Assembly: GCF_039539965.1 (NCBI RefSeq)
Contig: NZ_BAABED010000001.1
Span: forward strand, 248,001-312,000
DNA length: 64,000 bases
Direction of reading: 5' to 3'
From: Arthrobacter methylotrophus
GTDB lineage: Bacteria; Actinomycetota; Actinomycetes; Actinomycetales; Micrococcaceae
Shown: piece by piece, positions 42,088-47,957 of the stretch
Position numbering within the stretch: position 1 is the stretch's first letter
How the letters are laid out: each line of letters starts with the position of its first letter
The notes under the pieces: generated by a model
What the model was told of the DNA's origin: nothing
The model's input: the letters and a program-made list of their open reading frames with translations, nothing else
Database searches by the model: none
Program-made: the position numbers and the translations under genes

Positions 42088-42144
42088 CTCGCAGTTGTTG
42101 TCGTTTAGTCGATGCTAAACGACAACAACTGCGAGTCAGTTGGG
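42085..42144. repeat. Family A palindromic repeat, copy 5 (left end truncated)
   Basis: About 60 bp; TAACTCGCAGTTGTTGTCG ... AACTGCGAGTCAGTTGGG. The outermost CCCAAC of the left arm is missing where the purC coding region ends. Confidence 0.85.
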
Positions 42145-42173: not shown

Positions 42174-43460
42174 TCAACTTGCGCGGGACGAATGAGCGCT
42201 TCCACCATGGCTTGCGGCCGCCCGACGTTCCGCCAGCCGGATTTCCAGCACCGAGTCCAAGGCCTGCTGAACCCGGTCTGCCGCGCCTGCAGCAGTGAAA
42301 TCACGCTGCGCTTCTTCGAGATGGACCAAGGCTTCCGTGTTTTCACCGGCCGCCTTGAGTGCCTTGCCGAGAAGGAAAGTGACTTCGCCCGCGGTATGCC
42401 GGGCCAGGACATCGCGGTCTGCGTGGATTTCGCGCAACTTGGTGATCGCGGCAGGGATGTCGCCGGTCAGGTAGAGCCAGCGGGCTCGGATGAACGCGAC
42501 TTCCAACTGGTCCGTCTTGTTTCCGCCCACAATAGATAGGGCGAGTTCAGCCCGTTCGATGGCGGAGAGTGTTTCTGGTTCCACAATGCCGGAGGAGAGC
42601 CGAACAGCCGCCGATGCTTTGTTGAAGCGCGCCCATAGGTCTATGTCATTGGCGGGGGAGAGCAGCTTGGCGGCTCGCTCGTGGTGCTTGATGCCTTCCA
42701 CATAGTCGTGCCGCATGAAAGCTACGTTTCCGACCACCCAGGCAACCTCGCCCGCGAGCTGCGACATCGAGTGGTCGTCCATCTGGCTATTCATGGCCTG
42801 GCAATACCCCCAGGCTTCGTCCAACCTGCCGCTCTCGGCCAGGGCTCCGATCAACGCACGGTGCGCGCCGATGATCAACGTTGAGCCCTTCGGCAGTTGC
42901 GCGGAAAGCCTCACGGCTTCCATGGCGTGCTCGACGGCGGTGGCCAGCTGACCTTGTCCGTGGCAGACAGCGGCAAGCATCTGCCGGGCGCGGACCCCCA
43001 GACCTGCAGACTCCGTGGCCATGGGATGTTCCAGTAGATGCTGGATGATCTGTTGGCATTCCTTCAGCTGCCCCTGTTTCATGAGGCACTCGGCTTGCAT
43101 GTAGGTCATGTTCCACCAGGCGCTGGTGTTTCTTGCCTCAAGCGCGATTTGCGCGGCAGCCGCTGCGTGGCTTGCGGCAAGCGGGTAGTCCCTCAGGTCC
43201 CAGGCTTGCCGTGCATATAGCCCGGCAAGCACGTACTCGGCGTCACTGACGGATACCGGCTGGCTCCAGGCTTCCAGGGCTTTCGGCGCGAGCTCCAGGC
43301 GCCGCGCGAGTTCTTCAATGACCTCGGCTGTAGGCTCCCGGCGTCCGGTTTCAAGAAGCGAAATGTAGCTGGGTGAGTAAAGATCCCTACCTAATTCAGC
43401 CTGGGTCAGCCCGCGTTCGAGCCGTTCGGCACGGAGCTTTTCTCCGAATCCGTTCCCCAC
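42174..43460 (-). CDS. XRE-family regulator with C-terminal TPR domain (RRNPP-like)
   Basis: 428 residues, GTG with AGGAGG 6 nt upstream. Residues ~6-62 are an XRE helix-turn-helix (LRAERLERGLTQAELGRDLY, YISLLETGRREP). The remaining ~350 residues are helical TPR-like repeats (AASHAAAAAQIALEA, ALAESGRLDEAWGYC, VGNVAFMRHDYVEGI, ALKAAGENTEALVHL). This HTH-TPR plan is that of RRNPP regulators, whose TPR groove binds an imported signal peptide. It diverges from a repeat-peptide gene 138 bp away. Peptide binding is inferred from context. Confidence 0.85.
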   Translation of the reverse strand: MGNGFGEKLRAERLERGLTQAELGRDLYSPSYISLLETGRREPTAEVIEELARRLELAPKALEAWSQPVSVSDAEYVLAGLYARQAWDLRDYPLAASHAAAAAQIALEARNTSAWWNMTYMQAECLMKQGQLKECQQIIQHLLEHPMATESAGLGVRARQMLAAVCHGQGQLATAVEHAMEAVRLSAQLPKGSTLIIGAHRALIGALAESGRLDEAWGYCQAMNSQMDDHSMSQLAGEVAWVVGNVAFMRHDYVEGIKHHERAAKLLSPANDIDLWARFNKASAAVRLSSGIVEPETLSAIERAELALSIVGGNKTDQLEVAFIRARWLYLTGDIPAAITKLREIHADRDVLARHTAGEVTFLLGKALKAAGENTEALVHLEEAQRDFTAAGAADRVQQALDSVLEIRLAERRAAASHGGSAHSSRAS

Positions 43461-43507
43461 AGGTTCCTCCTAGAGGCTTGTCTTTGCACTGTCTTTTCGC
43501 CTAAGCC

Positions 43508-43544
43508 TTGACAGTCGCTGTGGAAAACATTTTACAATGAATGT
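43508..43544 (+). promoter_or_regulatory. Candidate promoter/operator of the repeat-peptide gene
   Basis: TTGACA (43508-43513) and TACAAT (43533-43538), with a long 19-nt spacer. ACATT-TTACAATG-AATGT (43527-43544) is an inverted repeat centred on the -10 box, and TTGACA ... TGTCAA forms a wider one. The long spacer and overlapping palindrome suit an activator or repressor site for the divergent regulator. Confidence 0.5.
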
Positions 43545-43598
43545 CAACAGGGACCGCGTAATTTCCGTAACGAATCCGACTCGCATTGAGGAAAAATT

Positions 43599-43859
43599 AT
43601 GTTGAAGAAGATTGCTGCAGCAGTGGCCTTGGCCGGCGCTCTTGCATTCTCCGCCGCGGCGCCAGCCGTGGTTTCCGCAGCCCCTGTGGCAGACACCGTC
43701 AACACGGTGCTCAGCATTGGTAACTGGCCCGATCCGATGAGGCTCACGCAGGCGATCGGCAACTGGCCGGATCCCATGCTTGTTTCGCAGGCAATTGGCA
43801 ACTGGCCTGACCCCATGAGCGTCGCGCAGGCGATCGGCAATTGGCCAGACCCAGTGTAA
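43599..43859 (+). CDS. Secreted repeat-peptide precursor (four GNWPDP units)
   Basis: 86 residues, ATG with GAGG about 9 nt upstream. Residues 1-28 are a Sec signal peptide (MLKKIAAAVALAGALAF..., AxA-type sites around residues 22-28). After a 10-residue spacer come four copies of a 13-residue unit: IGNWPDPM-RLTQ-A, IGNWPDPM-LVSQ-A, IGNWPDPM-SVAQ-A, IGNWPDPV-stop (residues 39-86). The core is invariant while its codons differ; the Pro before Asp is CCC, CCG, CCT and CCA in turn. Cutting at the variable linkers would release four near-identical peptides. Most likely a signal-peptide precursor for the divergent TPR regulator; an antimicrobial or surface role is possible. Confidence 0.85.
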   Translation: MLKKIAAAVALAGALAFSAAAPAVVSAAPVADTVNTVLSIGNWPDPMRLTQAIGNWPDPMLVSQAIGNWPDPMSVAQAIGNWPDPV

Positions 43860-43922
43860 GTGAGACCCGAGAGTGGCGTCCGGGGACCCGGGTAGCCACC
43901 TAATTATTCAAATGAAGTGAAG

Positions 43923-43965
43923 AATCCCCGAGGCGTCCGAAATCGACACTCCGGGGATTTCTTTT
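43923..43965 (+). terminator. Terminator after the repeat-peptide gene
   Basis: AATCCCCG / CGGGGATT stem with a 21-nt loop and a TTTCTTTT run. A second GTGGC/GCCAC hairpin lies just before it (43873-43898). The stretch 43966-44104 shows nothing else. Confidence 0.75.
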
Positions 43966-44151: not shown

Positions 44152-44228
<77 letters not shown>

Positions 44229-44313: not shown

Positions 44314-46131
44314 TCAGACCAGCGAGTCCTTCCAGGCACCGTGCAAACGGGCGAAGCGCCCTCCGCCGCCGATGAGCTCGGCAGGCGAGCCGTCTTCCAC
44401 GATGCGTCCCTCGTGTACCACGAGCACCCGGTCAGCTGTCTCTACCGTCGAGAGCCGGTGGGCGATAATGATGGCCGTGCGCTCGGAATCCGTGCCAGAC
44501 AACAGCTTGCTGAGCCCAGCCTGAACCAGCCGCTCGGAAGGAATGTCAAGGGATGATGTGGCTTCGTCCAGGATGAGCACTGCCGGGGCGGCAATGAATG
44601 CCCGGGCGAAGCCGATCAACTGCCGTTGTCCGGCGGAGACGCGCCCGCCCCGCTTGTTAACGTCCGTGTCGTAGCCGTCAGGCAACCCGGAGATGAAGTC
44701 ATGTGCCCCTACCGCCCGGGCAGCTTCTTCAATCTCCGCGCGGGTAGCTTCGGGCCGTCCCAGGGCGATGTTGTCCGCCACCGAGCCGCTAAAGAGGAAG
44801 GCTTCCTGGGTGACCATGACGACGGCGCGGCGCAGGTCCGCCGTCGAGAGCTCCCGGAGGTCGACCCCGTCGAGGGTCAAAGACCCTGCGGTGACGTCGT
44901 AGAAGCGGGCGATCAGCTTGGCGAAGGTCGATTTGCCAGCGCCGGTCTGTCCGACGAGCGCTATGGTCTGCCCGGCGGGAATGTGCAGATTCAGCTCGGG
45001 GACCACTACCTTGCCGTTGCCGTAGCCGAACTCCACGCCGCGGAAGTCGATTTCGCCGCGGGCATGAGGCAGGGGGACCGGGTTCTTGGGAGGCCGGACG
45101 GTGGGAACTTCTTCGAGCAGGCCGGACACCTTCTCCAGCGCGGCTTGGGCGCTCTGGAAGGAGTTGTAGAACATGGCCATCTGGTCCACAGGCTGGAAGA
45201 AGCGTTTGGTGGAAAGGATCAGCGCCAAGAGCACGCCTACTGCCAGGTCTCCGGAGAGCACCCGGAAGCCGCCGAACAGCAGGACCACGGCCACGCACAC
45301 ATTGCCGACCAGGACCAGGCCCGGTTGGAAGATGCCGTTCAAGTTGATGGAGCGAACCGTGACTTTGCGGTAGTCCTCGGACAGTTCGGCGTAGCGTCTG
45401 GCGTTCTCCGGTTCCTTCCGGAATGCCTTGATGGCCCGGATACCGGTCATGGTCTCCACGAAGTGCACAATCAGTCGGGCGGAAACCACACGGGACTCGC
45501 GGAAAGCGATCTGTGAATGCTTCTGGTACCAGCGGGCCAGAAAGTATGCGGGTACGCCCGTGGCGAGCATGATGAGTCCGCTGCGCCAGTCGAGGGCAAA
45601 GACGGTACATGCCGTGAAGAGCATGAACAGGATCCCCGAGGCCAAGGAACTGACGCCGGAATCGAGGAGTTCGCGCAACGCTTCGAGGTCCGAGGTCTGG
45701 CGGGCGATGATCCGGCCTGAAGTGTACTTCTCGTGGAACTCCAGGCTGAGCCGCTGGGTGTGTCGGAAGACCCTTAGCCGCAGGTCAAGCAGCATCGATT
45801 GGCTCAGCCTCGCCGTCGAGGTGACGTAGAGGGCCGTCAACACCGCCGTTGCGATGGCTGCCGCCAGATACAGGGCGCCGGCCAGGACCAGCGGCACGTT
45901 GTTTCCTGCGAGCAGCGATGGCAGGGCGTGGTCGATGCCGAAAGCAATGATCGCCGGCCCGGCCACCCGAGTGGCCTGCGAGAGCACCACCATCCCCAGC
46001 GTGAGCCAGAACCGCAACCGTACCGGGCGGATGAGCGATCCCAGCAAGGCAACCGACCGCCGTCGTACTGCTTTGCTGTCGCTACGGCTCAGGTGGGCGT
46101 TGTCTTCATTGGCGGTTCCGAACGTGCTCAT
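44314..46131 (-). CDS. ABC exporter half-transporter (canonical ATPase site partner)
   Basis: 605 residues: six-helix membrane domain then an ABC domain. Walker [10 protein letters not shown], Walker [12 protein letters not shown] with catalytic Glu, but a degenerate signature [10 protein letters not shown]. Starts in a 4-bp ATGA overlap with the upstream ABC gene, so the two make a heterodimer. Type IV exporters carry lipids, drugs or peptides; substrate unknown. Confidence 0.92.
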
Positions 46132-47957
46132 CGGCGGCCTTCCCCGGCTTGGTTCATGTGCTGTTCCGCATCGAGCTCGTGCTCGAGTTCGTCGAGTTCG
46201 AGGTCGAGATCCTTCGGACCCGCATCGAGGCTCGCGATCACGTAGCGGTAGTGCGCGTTGTTGGCCAAGAGCTCCGTATGGGTCCCGACGGCGGTGATGC
46301 TTCCTTTTTCGAGCAGCGCCACCCTGTCGGCCAGGGCAACAGTCGAGGGCCGGTGCGCCACGATCAGCGTGGTGGTGTCCCGGAGGACCTCGCGGAGACG
46401 GGCCTCGACGAGTTCTTCTGTGTTCACGTCCAGGGCCGAGAGCGGATCATCCAGCACGAGGACCTTGGGCTTGGCTGCGATGGCGCGGGCGAGGGCGATC
46501 CGCTGCCGCTGGCCTCCGGAAAGGCTGAGACCTTCTTCTCCGATAAGGGTCTCGACGCCGTCGGGCAGCGAATACGCGAAGTGCGCCTGCGCGACGTCGA
46601 GCGCTTCTTCGAGTGCCTCCTCGGAAGTATCGGGCGCGCCAAGCAGCACGTTGTCCCGGACCGAGCTCGAGAACAGAGTGGTGTCCTCGAAGGCGACGGC
46701 GACCACCGTCCGCAGCTGCTCTACGCTGAAATCCCGAATATCAACGCCGTCGATGCTCACGGATCCTTCGCTCACGTCATAGAGCCGGGGGACCAGCTGG
46801 AGGAGGGCGCTCTTTCCGCTGCCGGTAATGCCCACGAGGGCCATGGTTTCGCCCGGCCGGATGTCCAAGGTGATGTCGTGCAGGAGCCGGGCGCCGTCGT
46901 CGAAACCGAAAGCGGCGCCTTTGAAGCTCAAGGCCCCACGCAGTTTCTTGGGTGTTCTGGGGTTCGCCGGGCTGGTGATCGTGTTGGGCGTGTCCATGAC
47001 CTCGAAGTGGCGGTCGAGGGCCGTCTTGGCGGTCAAAGCCATGGCAAGGAGCGTCCCCGAGAATTCCACCGGTGCGGCCACCACCGCCGCGGTGCCAAAG
47101 AACGCAACCAGGGAACCAATGCTGAGTTCGCCTGCGGAGACAAGCAGGACGCCCGCTACGAGCCCGACGCCGAGTGCCAGCTCGGGCAGGAGGGTCACCA
47201 CGAGCGTGAAGGTGGCTTGGTGCTTGGCCTTGGCGATCTCGGTCTGCCTCAGCTCTTCGGCCTGCTCGTTGAAGTTCTCCAGTGCCTCGCGACTGCGACC
47301 GAACGCCTTCAGCACGCGGATGCCGTGAACGGACTCCTCAACAGTGGTGGCGAGGTCGCCGGCCTGGTCCTGGCTGAGGCGGGTGACCAAGCTGAAGCGG
47401 CGGCGGAAGCGGAACGAATAGACCATGATGGGCACAGCGGCGGCCAGGAAGATCAAAGCCAGTTGCCAGCTCATCGCGAACATCACGACGACGCCAATCA
47501 CCACGGTCAGCGTGGTCACCACCAGCATGATCGCGCCGAACGCCATCCAACGCCGCAGGAAGTTCAAGTCGGTCATCGCGCGCGACAGCAATTGCCCTGA
47601 GCCCCAACGGTCGTGGAAGGAAACTGTGAGGTCCTGCAGGTGGCCGTAGAGGGACACCCGCATCCTGGATTCCACGGTGGTTGCGGGATTGATGACGAAC
47701 TGGCGCCGCAGAGCCACTAGCCCGGCTTCTGCGATACCGAGTGCCAGAACCACCGCGGCGGCAATCCAGACAGCGTTGCTGGGGCCGCCCGGGTGGAGGG
47801 AGCCGTTGATCAGGACCCGCAGCACTTGCGGGATGGCAAGCGCCATGATGCTGGCCAGCAATGCGCTGAGCAGCCCCATGAAAAGCCGGGGGAGGATCGG
47901 TTTCACATGCGGATAGAGACGTTTGATGGAGGTGAAAAATGAAGTCTGTTTGGCCAT
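46128..47957 (-). CDS. ABC exporter half-transporter (degenerate Walker B partner)
   Basis: 609 residues with the same layout. Walker [12 protein letters not shown], canonical signature [11 protein letters not shown], but Walker [12 protein letters not shown] has Asp in place of the catalytic Glu. Paired with its neighbour, one composite ATP site is canonical and the other degenerate, as in TM287/288-type exporters. First gene of the pair, reading leftward. Confidence 0.92.

Follow-up and report, generated by a model that had tools for sequence, protein, structure and literature searches.

What is encoded by two divergent genes in a 64,000-nucleotide stretch of the Arthrobacter methylotrophus genome (referred to here as the window, in whose coordinates all positions are given unless stated otherwise), where a receptor-like gene and a small open reading frame (ORF) carrying internal repeats are separated by 138 bp? 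The analysis described here makes it probable that the pair consists of an intracellular peptide-pheromone receptor and its own propeptide, forming a self-contained module that works like the RRNPP systems. Such cell-to-cell signalling has so far been described mainly in another bacterial phylum. A preliminary description of the locus had reported a regulator of 428 residues and an ORF of 86 residues arranged divergently across 138 bp, all of which was borne out by the ORF coordinates and by Pfam. The features of the small ORF are as follows.

43599..43859, plus strand: candidate secreted propeptide of 86 residues with four IGNWPDP units (ORF, repeats, genus comparison)
43599..43688, plus strand: presumed Sec signal peptide, approximately residues 1-30 (by eye and simple hydrophobicity score)
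43716..43739, plus strand: peptide unit 1, IGNWPDPM (sequence)
43755..43778, plus strand: peptide unit 2, IGNWPDPM (sequence)
43794..43817, plus strand: peptide unit 3, IGNWPDPM (sequence)
43833..43856, plus strand: peptide unit 4, IGNWPDPV, at the very end of the protein (sequence)

The IGNWPDP cores (43716-43736, 43755-43775, 43794-43814 and 43833-43853) are spaced by exactly 39 bp, in agreement with the four units in 13-residue steps described previously, and their codons differ among the copies as had been noted (Pro before Asp being encoded by CCC, CCG, CCT and CCA, Gly by GGT or GGC and Asn by AAC or AAT). The proposed unit ending, IGNWPDPM, was found in units 1 to 3 but not in unit 4, where V takes the place of M. 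When the last 56 residues were shuffled 20000 times, a repeated 6-mer arose in just 3 cases. The N-terminus, with two Lys residues, a hydrophobic stretch and A-x-A motifs, was presumed to be a signal peptide, and no Pfam or NCBIfam family matched the precursor above cut-off.

Each of the 150 genomes sampled from the genus encodes relatives of both precursor and regulator (threshold 1e-3), and these were divergent neighbours in all 148 genomes with a listed precursor row, with a gap of 124-146 bp (median 131); one of the two remaining genomes shows the same layout. For the analysis of the repeats, 53 different precursors were drawn from 61 loci, some places having been fetched twice, and a unit was counted where at least four of six residues were like GNWPDP. 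This yielded 161 units, with four units in 22 precursors, three in 12, two in 18 and one in a single precursor. The exact GNWPDP sequence was found in 147 of the 161, G and W being retained in all, each P in 159, N in 158 and D in 152. Among copies within one precursor, the synonymous (pS) and non-synonymous (pN) proportions were 0.59 and 0.0064 (pN/pS 0.011), and the residues linking the units vary among the genus precursors. With a near-invariant core and variable linkers, the sequences show selection on a short peptide, some 6-8 residues in length. Co-occurrence of the two genes in relatives and conservation of the repeats at the protein level had both been named in advance as checks on the proposal, and both came out in its favour. 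Nothing was seen that would favour chance or an assembly artefact, and the recurrence in 148 of 148 genomes with a listed row, the shuffle results and the pN/pS value make such an origin scarcely credible.

The gene on the other strand encodes the putative receptor.

42174..43460, minus strand: XRE-HTH regulator with eight TPRs, 428 residues, GTG start; candidate intracellular peptide receptor (ORF, Pfam, AlphaFold2 model)
43263..43451, minus strand: HTH domain of the regulator, DNA-binding, residues 4-66 (Pfam HTH_31/HTH_3; model helices 4-15 to 59-66)
42288..43250, minus strand: eight TPR units of the regulator, residues 71-391 (predicted model)

Pfam matches above the cut-offs were obtained with HTH_31 (1.6e-11), HTH_3, TPR_12 and TPR_14, and the Pfam and NCBIfam matches of the regulator are general HTH and TPR models. 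The receptor fold was predicted using AlphaFold2, yielding a model with eight TPRs and a mean pLDDT of 90.9, in which W241, N245, W276, N280 and R287, among the most conserved residues of the regulator, lie in TPR5 and TPR6, on the first helix of each.

The region between the two genes contains a candidate operator.

43508..43547, no strand: dyad of 40 bp, TTGACA-N28-TGTCAA, spanning the divergent promoter; candidate operator (intergenic alignment)
43508..43513, plus strand: -35-like TTGACA of the precursor promoter, identical with the left arm of the dyad (sequence)

The inverted repeat over the -10 box that had been described earlier is present but is larger than claimed, as the 40-bp dyad spans both the -35 and the -10. 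It is self-complementary at 26 of 40 positions, a value matched by 6 of 20000 shuffles, and covers a perfect -35 (TTGACA). The -10, either TTTACA (at 17 bp) or TACAAT (at 19 bp), is poor, and its weakness suggests activation. A strict sigma-70 promoter scan called no promoter at the dyad. Alignment of 71 non-identical intergenic regions, whose regulators are at least 55% identical, contained a single strongly conserved block, CTTGACA-N5-TGTGGAAA-NN-ATTTTACA-N5-TGTCAA, which corresponds to 43508-43547 in the window. The outer arms, at a spacing of 28, were perfect in 62 of 66 stretches whose regulator shares 77% identity or more, which come from the genus and in a few cases from genus g7. Among 24 other stretches 12 had perfect arms and six more had one or two mismatches; some stretches were scored as dyad mismatches only since the upstream start call had clipped them, as seen in the alignment. 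When 14 promoters belonging to HTH-less receptors were compared with the dyad, even the best fit had mismatches at no fewer than 4 of the 12 arm positions. The dyad thus goes with the HTH-TPR regulators and not with the HTH-less receptors, and judging from these comparisons it is most likely bound by the HTH-TPR protein, which would regulate its own module.

The genome of the window contains a single copy of the dyad when up to three mismatches are allowed, in the full as well as a shorter form. The propeptide is thus the only visible target, with a dyad unique to its promoter, which would also suit a different arrangement in which the secreted repeat peptides are an output (antimicrobial, wall-active or surface peptides) and the regulator controls them while sensing something else; the tandem repeats would then raise the dose. 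We regard this as unlikely in view of the paralogous and distant pairs described below.

For the receptor and propeptide reading, the following sequence of events can be envisaged. The 86-residue propeptide would be secreted and processed to give several copies of a peptide, 7-9 residues long, around I-G-N-W-P-D-P-(M). The peptide would re-enter the cell via an oligopeptide importer and lodge in the groove formed by the regulator's TPR superhelix. Through its HTH domain the regulator would occupy the 40-bp dyad, and its peptide load would set the transcription of both the propeptide and the regulator itself. Oligopeptide importers exist in the genome, with 10 SBP_bac_5 matches. A receptor that presumably resides in the cytoplasm and is encoded next to the propeptide could also serve cell-internal feedback in which the TPR protein senses unsecreted propeptide, as a gauge of secretion or translation, instead of a returned peptide. 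This is improbable, however, as the variable linkers, the near-invariant core, the range of 1-8 copies and the occurrence of C-terminal single copies are more consistent with release of a small peptide, and importer genes are available.

A second divergent pair was found in the same genome (contig C1, about 3,494,200-3,495,700), comprising an HTH-less TPR protein, 40% identical to residues 76-402 of the regulator, and a 93-residue ORF containing the AIGWWPN unit four times. A GGDEF-EAL gene adjoins this pair on the other strand. The model of a 99% identical database copy (P0277) of the TPR-only protein has eight TPRs starting from residue 10, with a pLDDT of 94.7. All 18 TPR-only receptors fall into a single clade, though with a support of 0.545, the single-copy core forms the protein end in 8 of 9 TPR-only cases, and the cores of HTH-TPR and TPR-only pairs differ in all seven genomes in which both were read. 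Under the strict rule, a precursor adjoins the TPR-only receptor in 3 of 3 genus reads (the second pair counted) and at 13 of 16 family loci. Such proteins have no HTH for promoter binding yet keep an adjoining propeptide, which argues against the peptides being merely a regulated output. The TPR-only receptor and the AIGWWPN propeptide may constitute a second channel acting via another protein. Control of this pair by the HTH-TPR regulator was considered and rejected, its promoters being without the dyad.

Relatives of the regulator were identified in 88 of 197 family genomes and 17 of 32 genera, its own genus included (1e-10), and in 26 of 396 order genomes (1e-15), four of which belong to one other family, f17. 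The cores beside these relatives include GNWPDPM, VGNWPDP, VGNWPDA, TGNWPN, PGNWPD, VGIWPN and VWIWPD, as well as VGEWPH (Zafaria), GDWPN, GSWPN, GLWPY, GIWPY and GGSWPT (Arsenicicoccus), with WIWPD assigned to Specibacter; high copy numbers were reached by VGDWPH (up to 8 copies) and by VGNWPDRFYS of Tersicoccus (5 and 8 copies). This variation of the core with receptor class and clade again stands against an output function. The system extends beyond what had been claimed for the single locus, as far as can be judged from sequence, with altered cores in paralogous as well as distant pairs, and the module stands for a broader actinobacterial set. HTH-TPR loci with a precursor under the strict rule numbered 56 of 56 in the genus, 26 of 52 in the family outside the genus and 1 of 6 in f17; these counts exclude eight loci duplicating a place, two fragment loci having been set apart, and three loci were counted as precursor-less although other scans show a W-P ORF there.

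The receptor and propeptide reading has two weak points. Secondary paralogs of g7, most loci of genus g24 and the Galactobacter loci are without a precursor, and a search for a regulon via the operator (full dyad or its left part, up to three mismatches) matched only the regulator's own promoter, although weaker sites are possible. The first precursor scans required a W-P core, so that other cores could be missed, and signal-only scans detected no small secreted ORF at most of the precursor-less loci. These XRE-TPR relatives are either orphan receptors or have a precursor that lies elsewhere or carries another core.

At the level of the class, 13 of 394 genomes were matched using the regulator profiles (1e-30), and 45 of 197 genomes in 22 of 90 genera using a broader profile (1e-40). 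The class scan encompassed 57 loci, 52 from class genomes, one from a metagenome-assembled genome (MAG) contig and four from plasmids, one stretch stopping at the contig end. At 29 of these a divergent, secreted-looking ORF of about 40-56 residues ends in -CC (for example SPGEFCC, NWPTMCC and GGTWCC), and of the remainder five have a W-P ORF (one doubtful), ten another ORF and 13 none. A total of 228 control stretches of four kinds gave 0 CC and 4 W-P ORFs. The -CC loci span 13 genera and 8 families, with 10 of the 29 coming from the single genus g162 in an uneven sample. The W-P and -CC branches are linked by NWPKCC and NWPTMCC, which bear both marks. Many class relatives have just a short tail past the signal, a further point against the output reading. 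The C-terminal Cys-Cys could form a vicinal disulfide or be a modification site.

Named examples are Nonomuraea gerenzanensis, whose precursor ends in ...GDAGCC, and Streptomyces sp. NBC_00158, on a plasmid of which a stretch annotated as hypothetical protein WP_331719352.1 has three IDWP units. Streptomyces-type loci with 2-3 copies of I-D/E/G-W-P were observed, and some related plasmid loci lie beside biosynthetic genes, with a non-ribosomal peptide synthetase and a ketosynthase at one and an adenylation-domain protein at another. In the scan of ten named loci from the plasmid collection, two had a precursor and eight had none. Four other relatives from this collection showed no convincing precursor, one W-P ORF there being not secreted-looking and not relied on, and neither receptor matched in 50,697 phage records (1e-5). 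Arthrobacter-like receptor genes filed under Vibrio cholerae 35D, Sporosarcina beigongshangi and an Acidobacteria MAG are likely to reflect contamination or mislabelling.

On balance we favour the view that Actinomycetes hold a large unnamed set of intracellular XRE-TPR and HTH-less TPR peptide receptors facing their own secreted propeptides (tandem G-x-W-P repeats in Micrococcaceae, I-D/E/G-W-P repeats in Streptomyces-like members and short -CC tails in the 13 sampled genera of 8 families). This set would be an actinobacterial counterpart of RRNPP, possibly of separate origin, and Streptomyces regulators such as NsdA would be distant kin. A genus-wide pair, an unmodified-looking core, an operator candidate and class-wide relatives with other cores make linear-peptide communication in actinobacteria, including antibiotic producers, directly testable using inexpensive synthetic peptides.

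Two minor features were recorded around the precursor.

43588..43591, plus strand: GAGG, likely ribosome-binding site of the precursor (by eye)
43921..43965, plus strand: possible terminator hairpin 3' of the precursor (by eye; loop of about 20 nt)

A terminator scan with a loop limit of 8 reported no hairpin after the precursor. A long inverted repeat seen by eye after purC (42088-42136) is probably a terminator. The module is neighboured by purD, purC, tRNA-Pro (44152-44228) and two ATP-binding cassette (ABC) transporters, and Pfam assigned the eight neighbouring ORFs to an asparaginase, a molybdopterin oxidoreductase, PurD, PurC, the two ABC transporters, a phosphoesterase and a penicillin-binding protein. 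The ABC transporter gene pair, at 44314-47957 past tRNA-Pro, could be unrelated to the module or could serve the peptide. A small ORF with a conserved core might also be the precursor of a ribosomally synthesised and post-translationally modified peptide, but no peptide-modifying enzyme was found with Pfam among these eight ORFs and the N-terminus appears to be of Sec type, making this very improbable.

Kinship with known receptors was assessed using phmmer against the PDB, which gave no significant match of the regulator to an RRNPP receptor (PlcR at E 0.1 and ComR at E 0.23, in the HTH part only). A fold search placed Rap, NprR, AimR and PlcR near the top of the matches, yet MalT and eukaryotic TPR proteins scored as well or better, and the fold match was not taken as proof of RRNPP membership because unrelated TPR proteins score as high. 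The earlier term RRNPP-type therefore stands for the architecture and in part for the predicted fold, not for descent, for which sequence kinship was tested and none was found. In ComR-XIP of streptococci a Trp-rich peptide acts with the receptor's own promoter as target; the module shares the XRE-TPR receptor, a Trp-containing peptide and, as a candidate, the own-promoter target, and differs in phylum, gene order and repeats. Rap has an N-terminal helical bundle, whereas the TPR-only receptor model begins at the first TPR, and LGN and other eukaryotic TPR proteins outscore Rap in the fold comparison of that model. One -CC-type relative weakly matches the NsdA family of Streptomyces TPR regulators (NCBIfam NF053720; E 5.5e-7), a lead only, its 29.4 bits being below the 75-bit cut-off; for the window regulator, NF053720 was absent from the NCBIfam matches with E values of 1 or less, and the terms TPR, peptide and ligand are absent from the main text of a paper on an NsdA (PMC12243394).

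In the literature searched (titles and starts of abstracts, with few subscription journals and no preprints) no report of such receptors in Actinomycetota and no match for GNWPDP were found. The RRNPP_detector survey, in its available sections, covered only Firmicutes and viruses and calls the signals of Actinomycetota typically small molecules (PMC10075063), and an older review, in the part at hand, lists butyrolactones and cyclic or modified peptides (PMC4748050). The strict rule of RRNPP_detector, as excerpted, asks for a receptor of 250-500 residues adjoining a secreted ORF of 10-100 residues (PMC10075063); here 428 residues lie beside 86 across 138 bp, which agrees in form, with a signal presumed from hydrophobicity. 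The N-terminal XRE HTH typical of RRNPP receptors, which Rap is without, is present in the regulator. With the RRNPP/RRNPPA systems of Bacillota (Rap, Rgg, NprR, PlcR, PrgX, AimR, ComR, AloR) the module shares a TPR receptor, usually with an XRE HTH, an adjoining propeptide of fewer than 100 residues, whose secretion is presumed here, and a short peptide; some RRNPP propeptides contain several putative pheromones, according to an excerpt of PMC11343458. It differs in belonging to Actinomycetota and in its divergent genes, W-P core and up to 8 copies, an operon of receptor then peptide being given as a hallmark of many RRNPP members in a portion of PMC7425212. The same portion describes AloR-AloP of Paenibacillus, whose propeptide of 32-50 residues lies directly downstream of the receptor, and with which the actinobacterial system shares many paralogous HTH-TPR receptor and propeptide pairs as well as orphan receptors.
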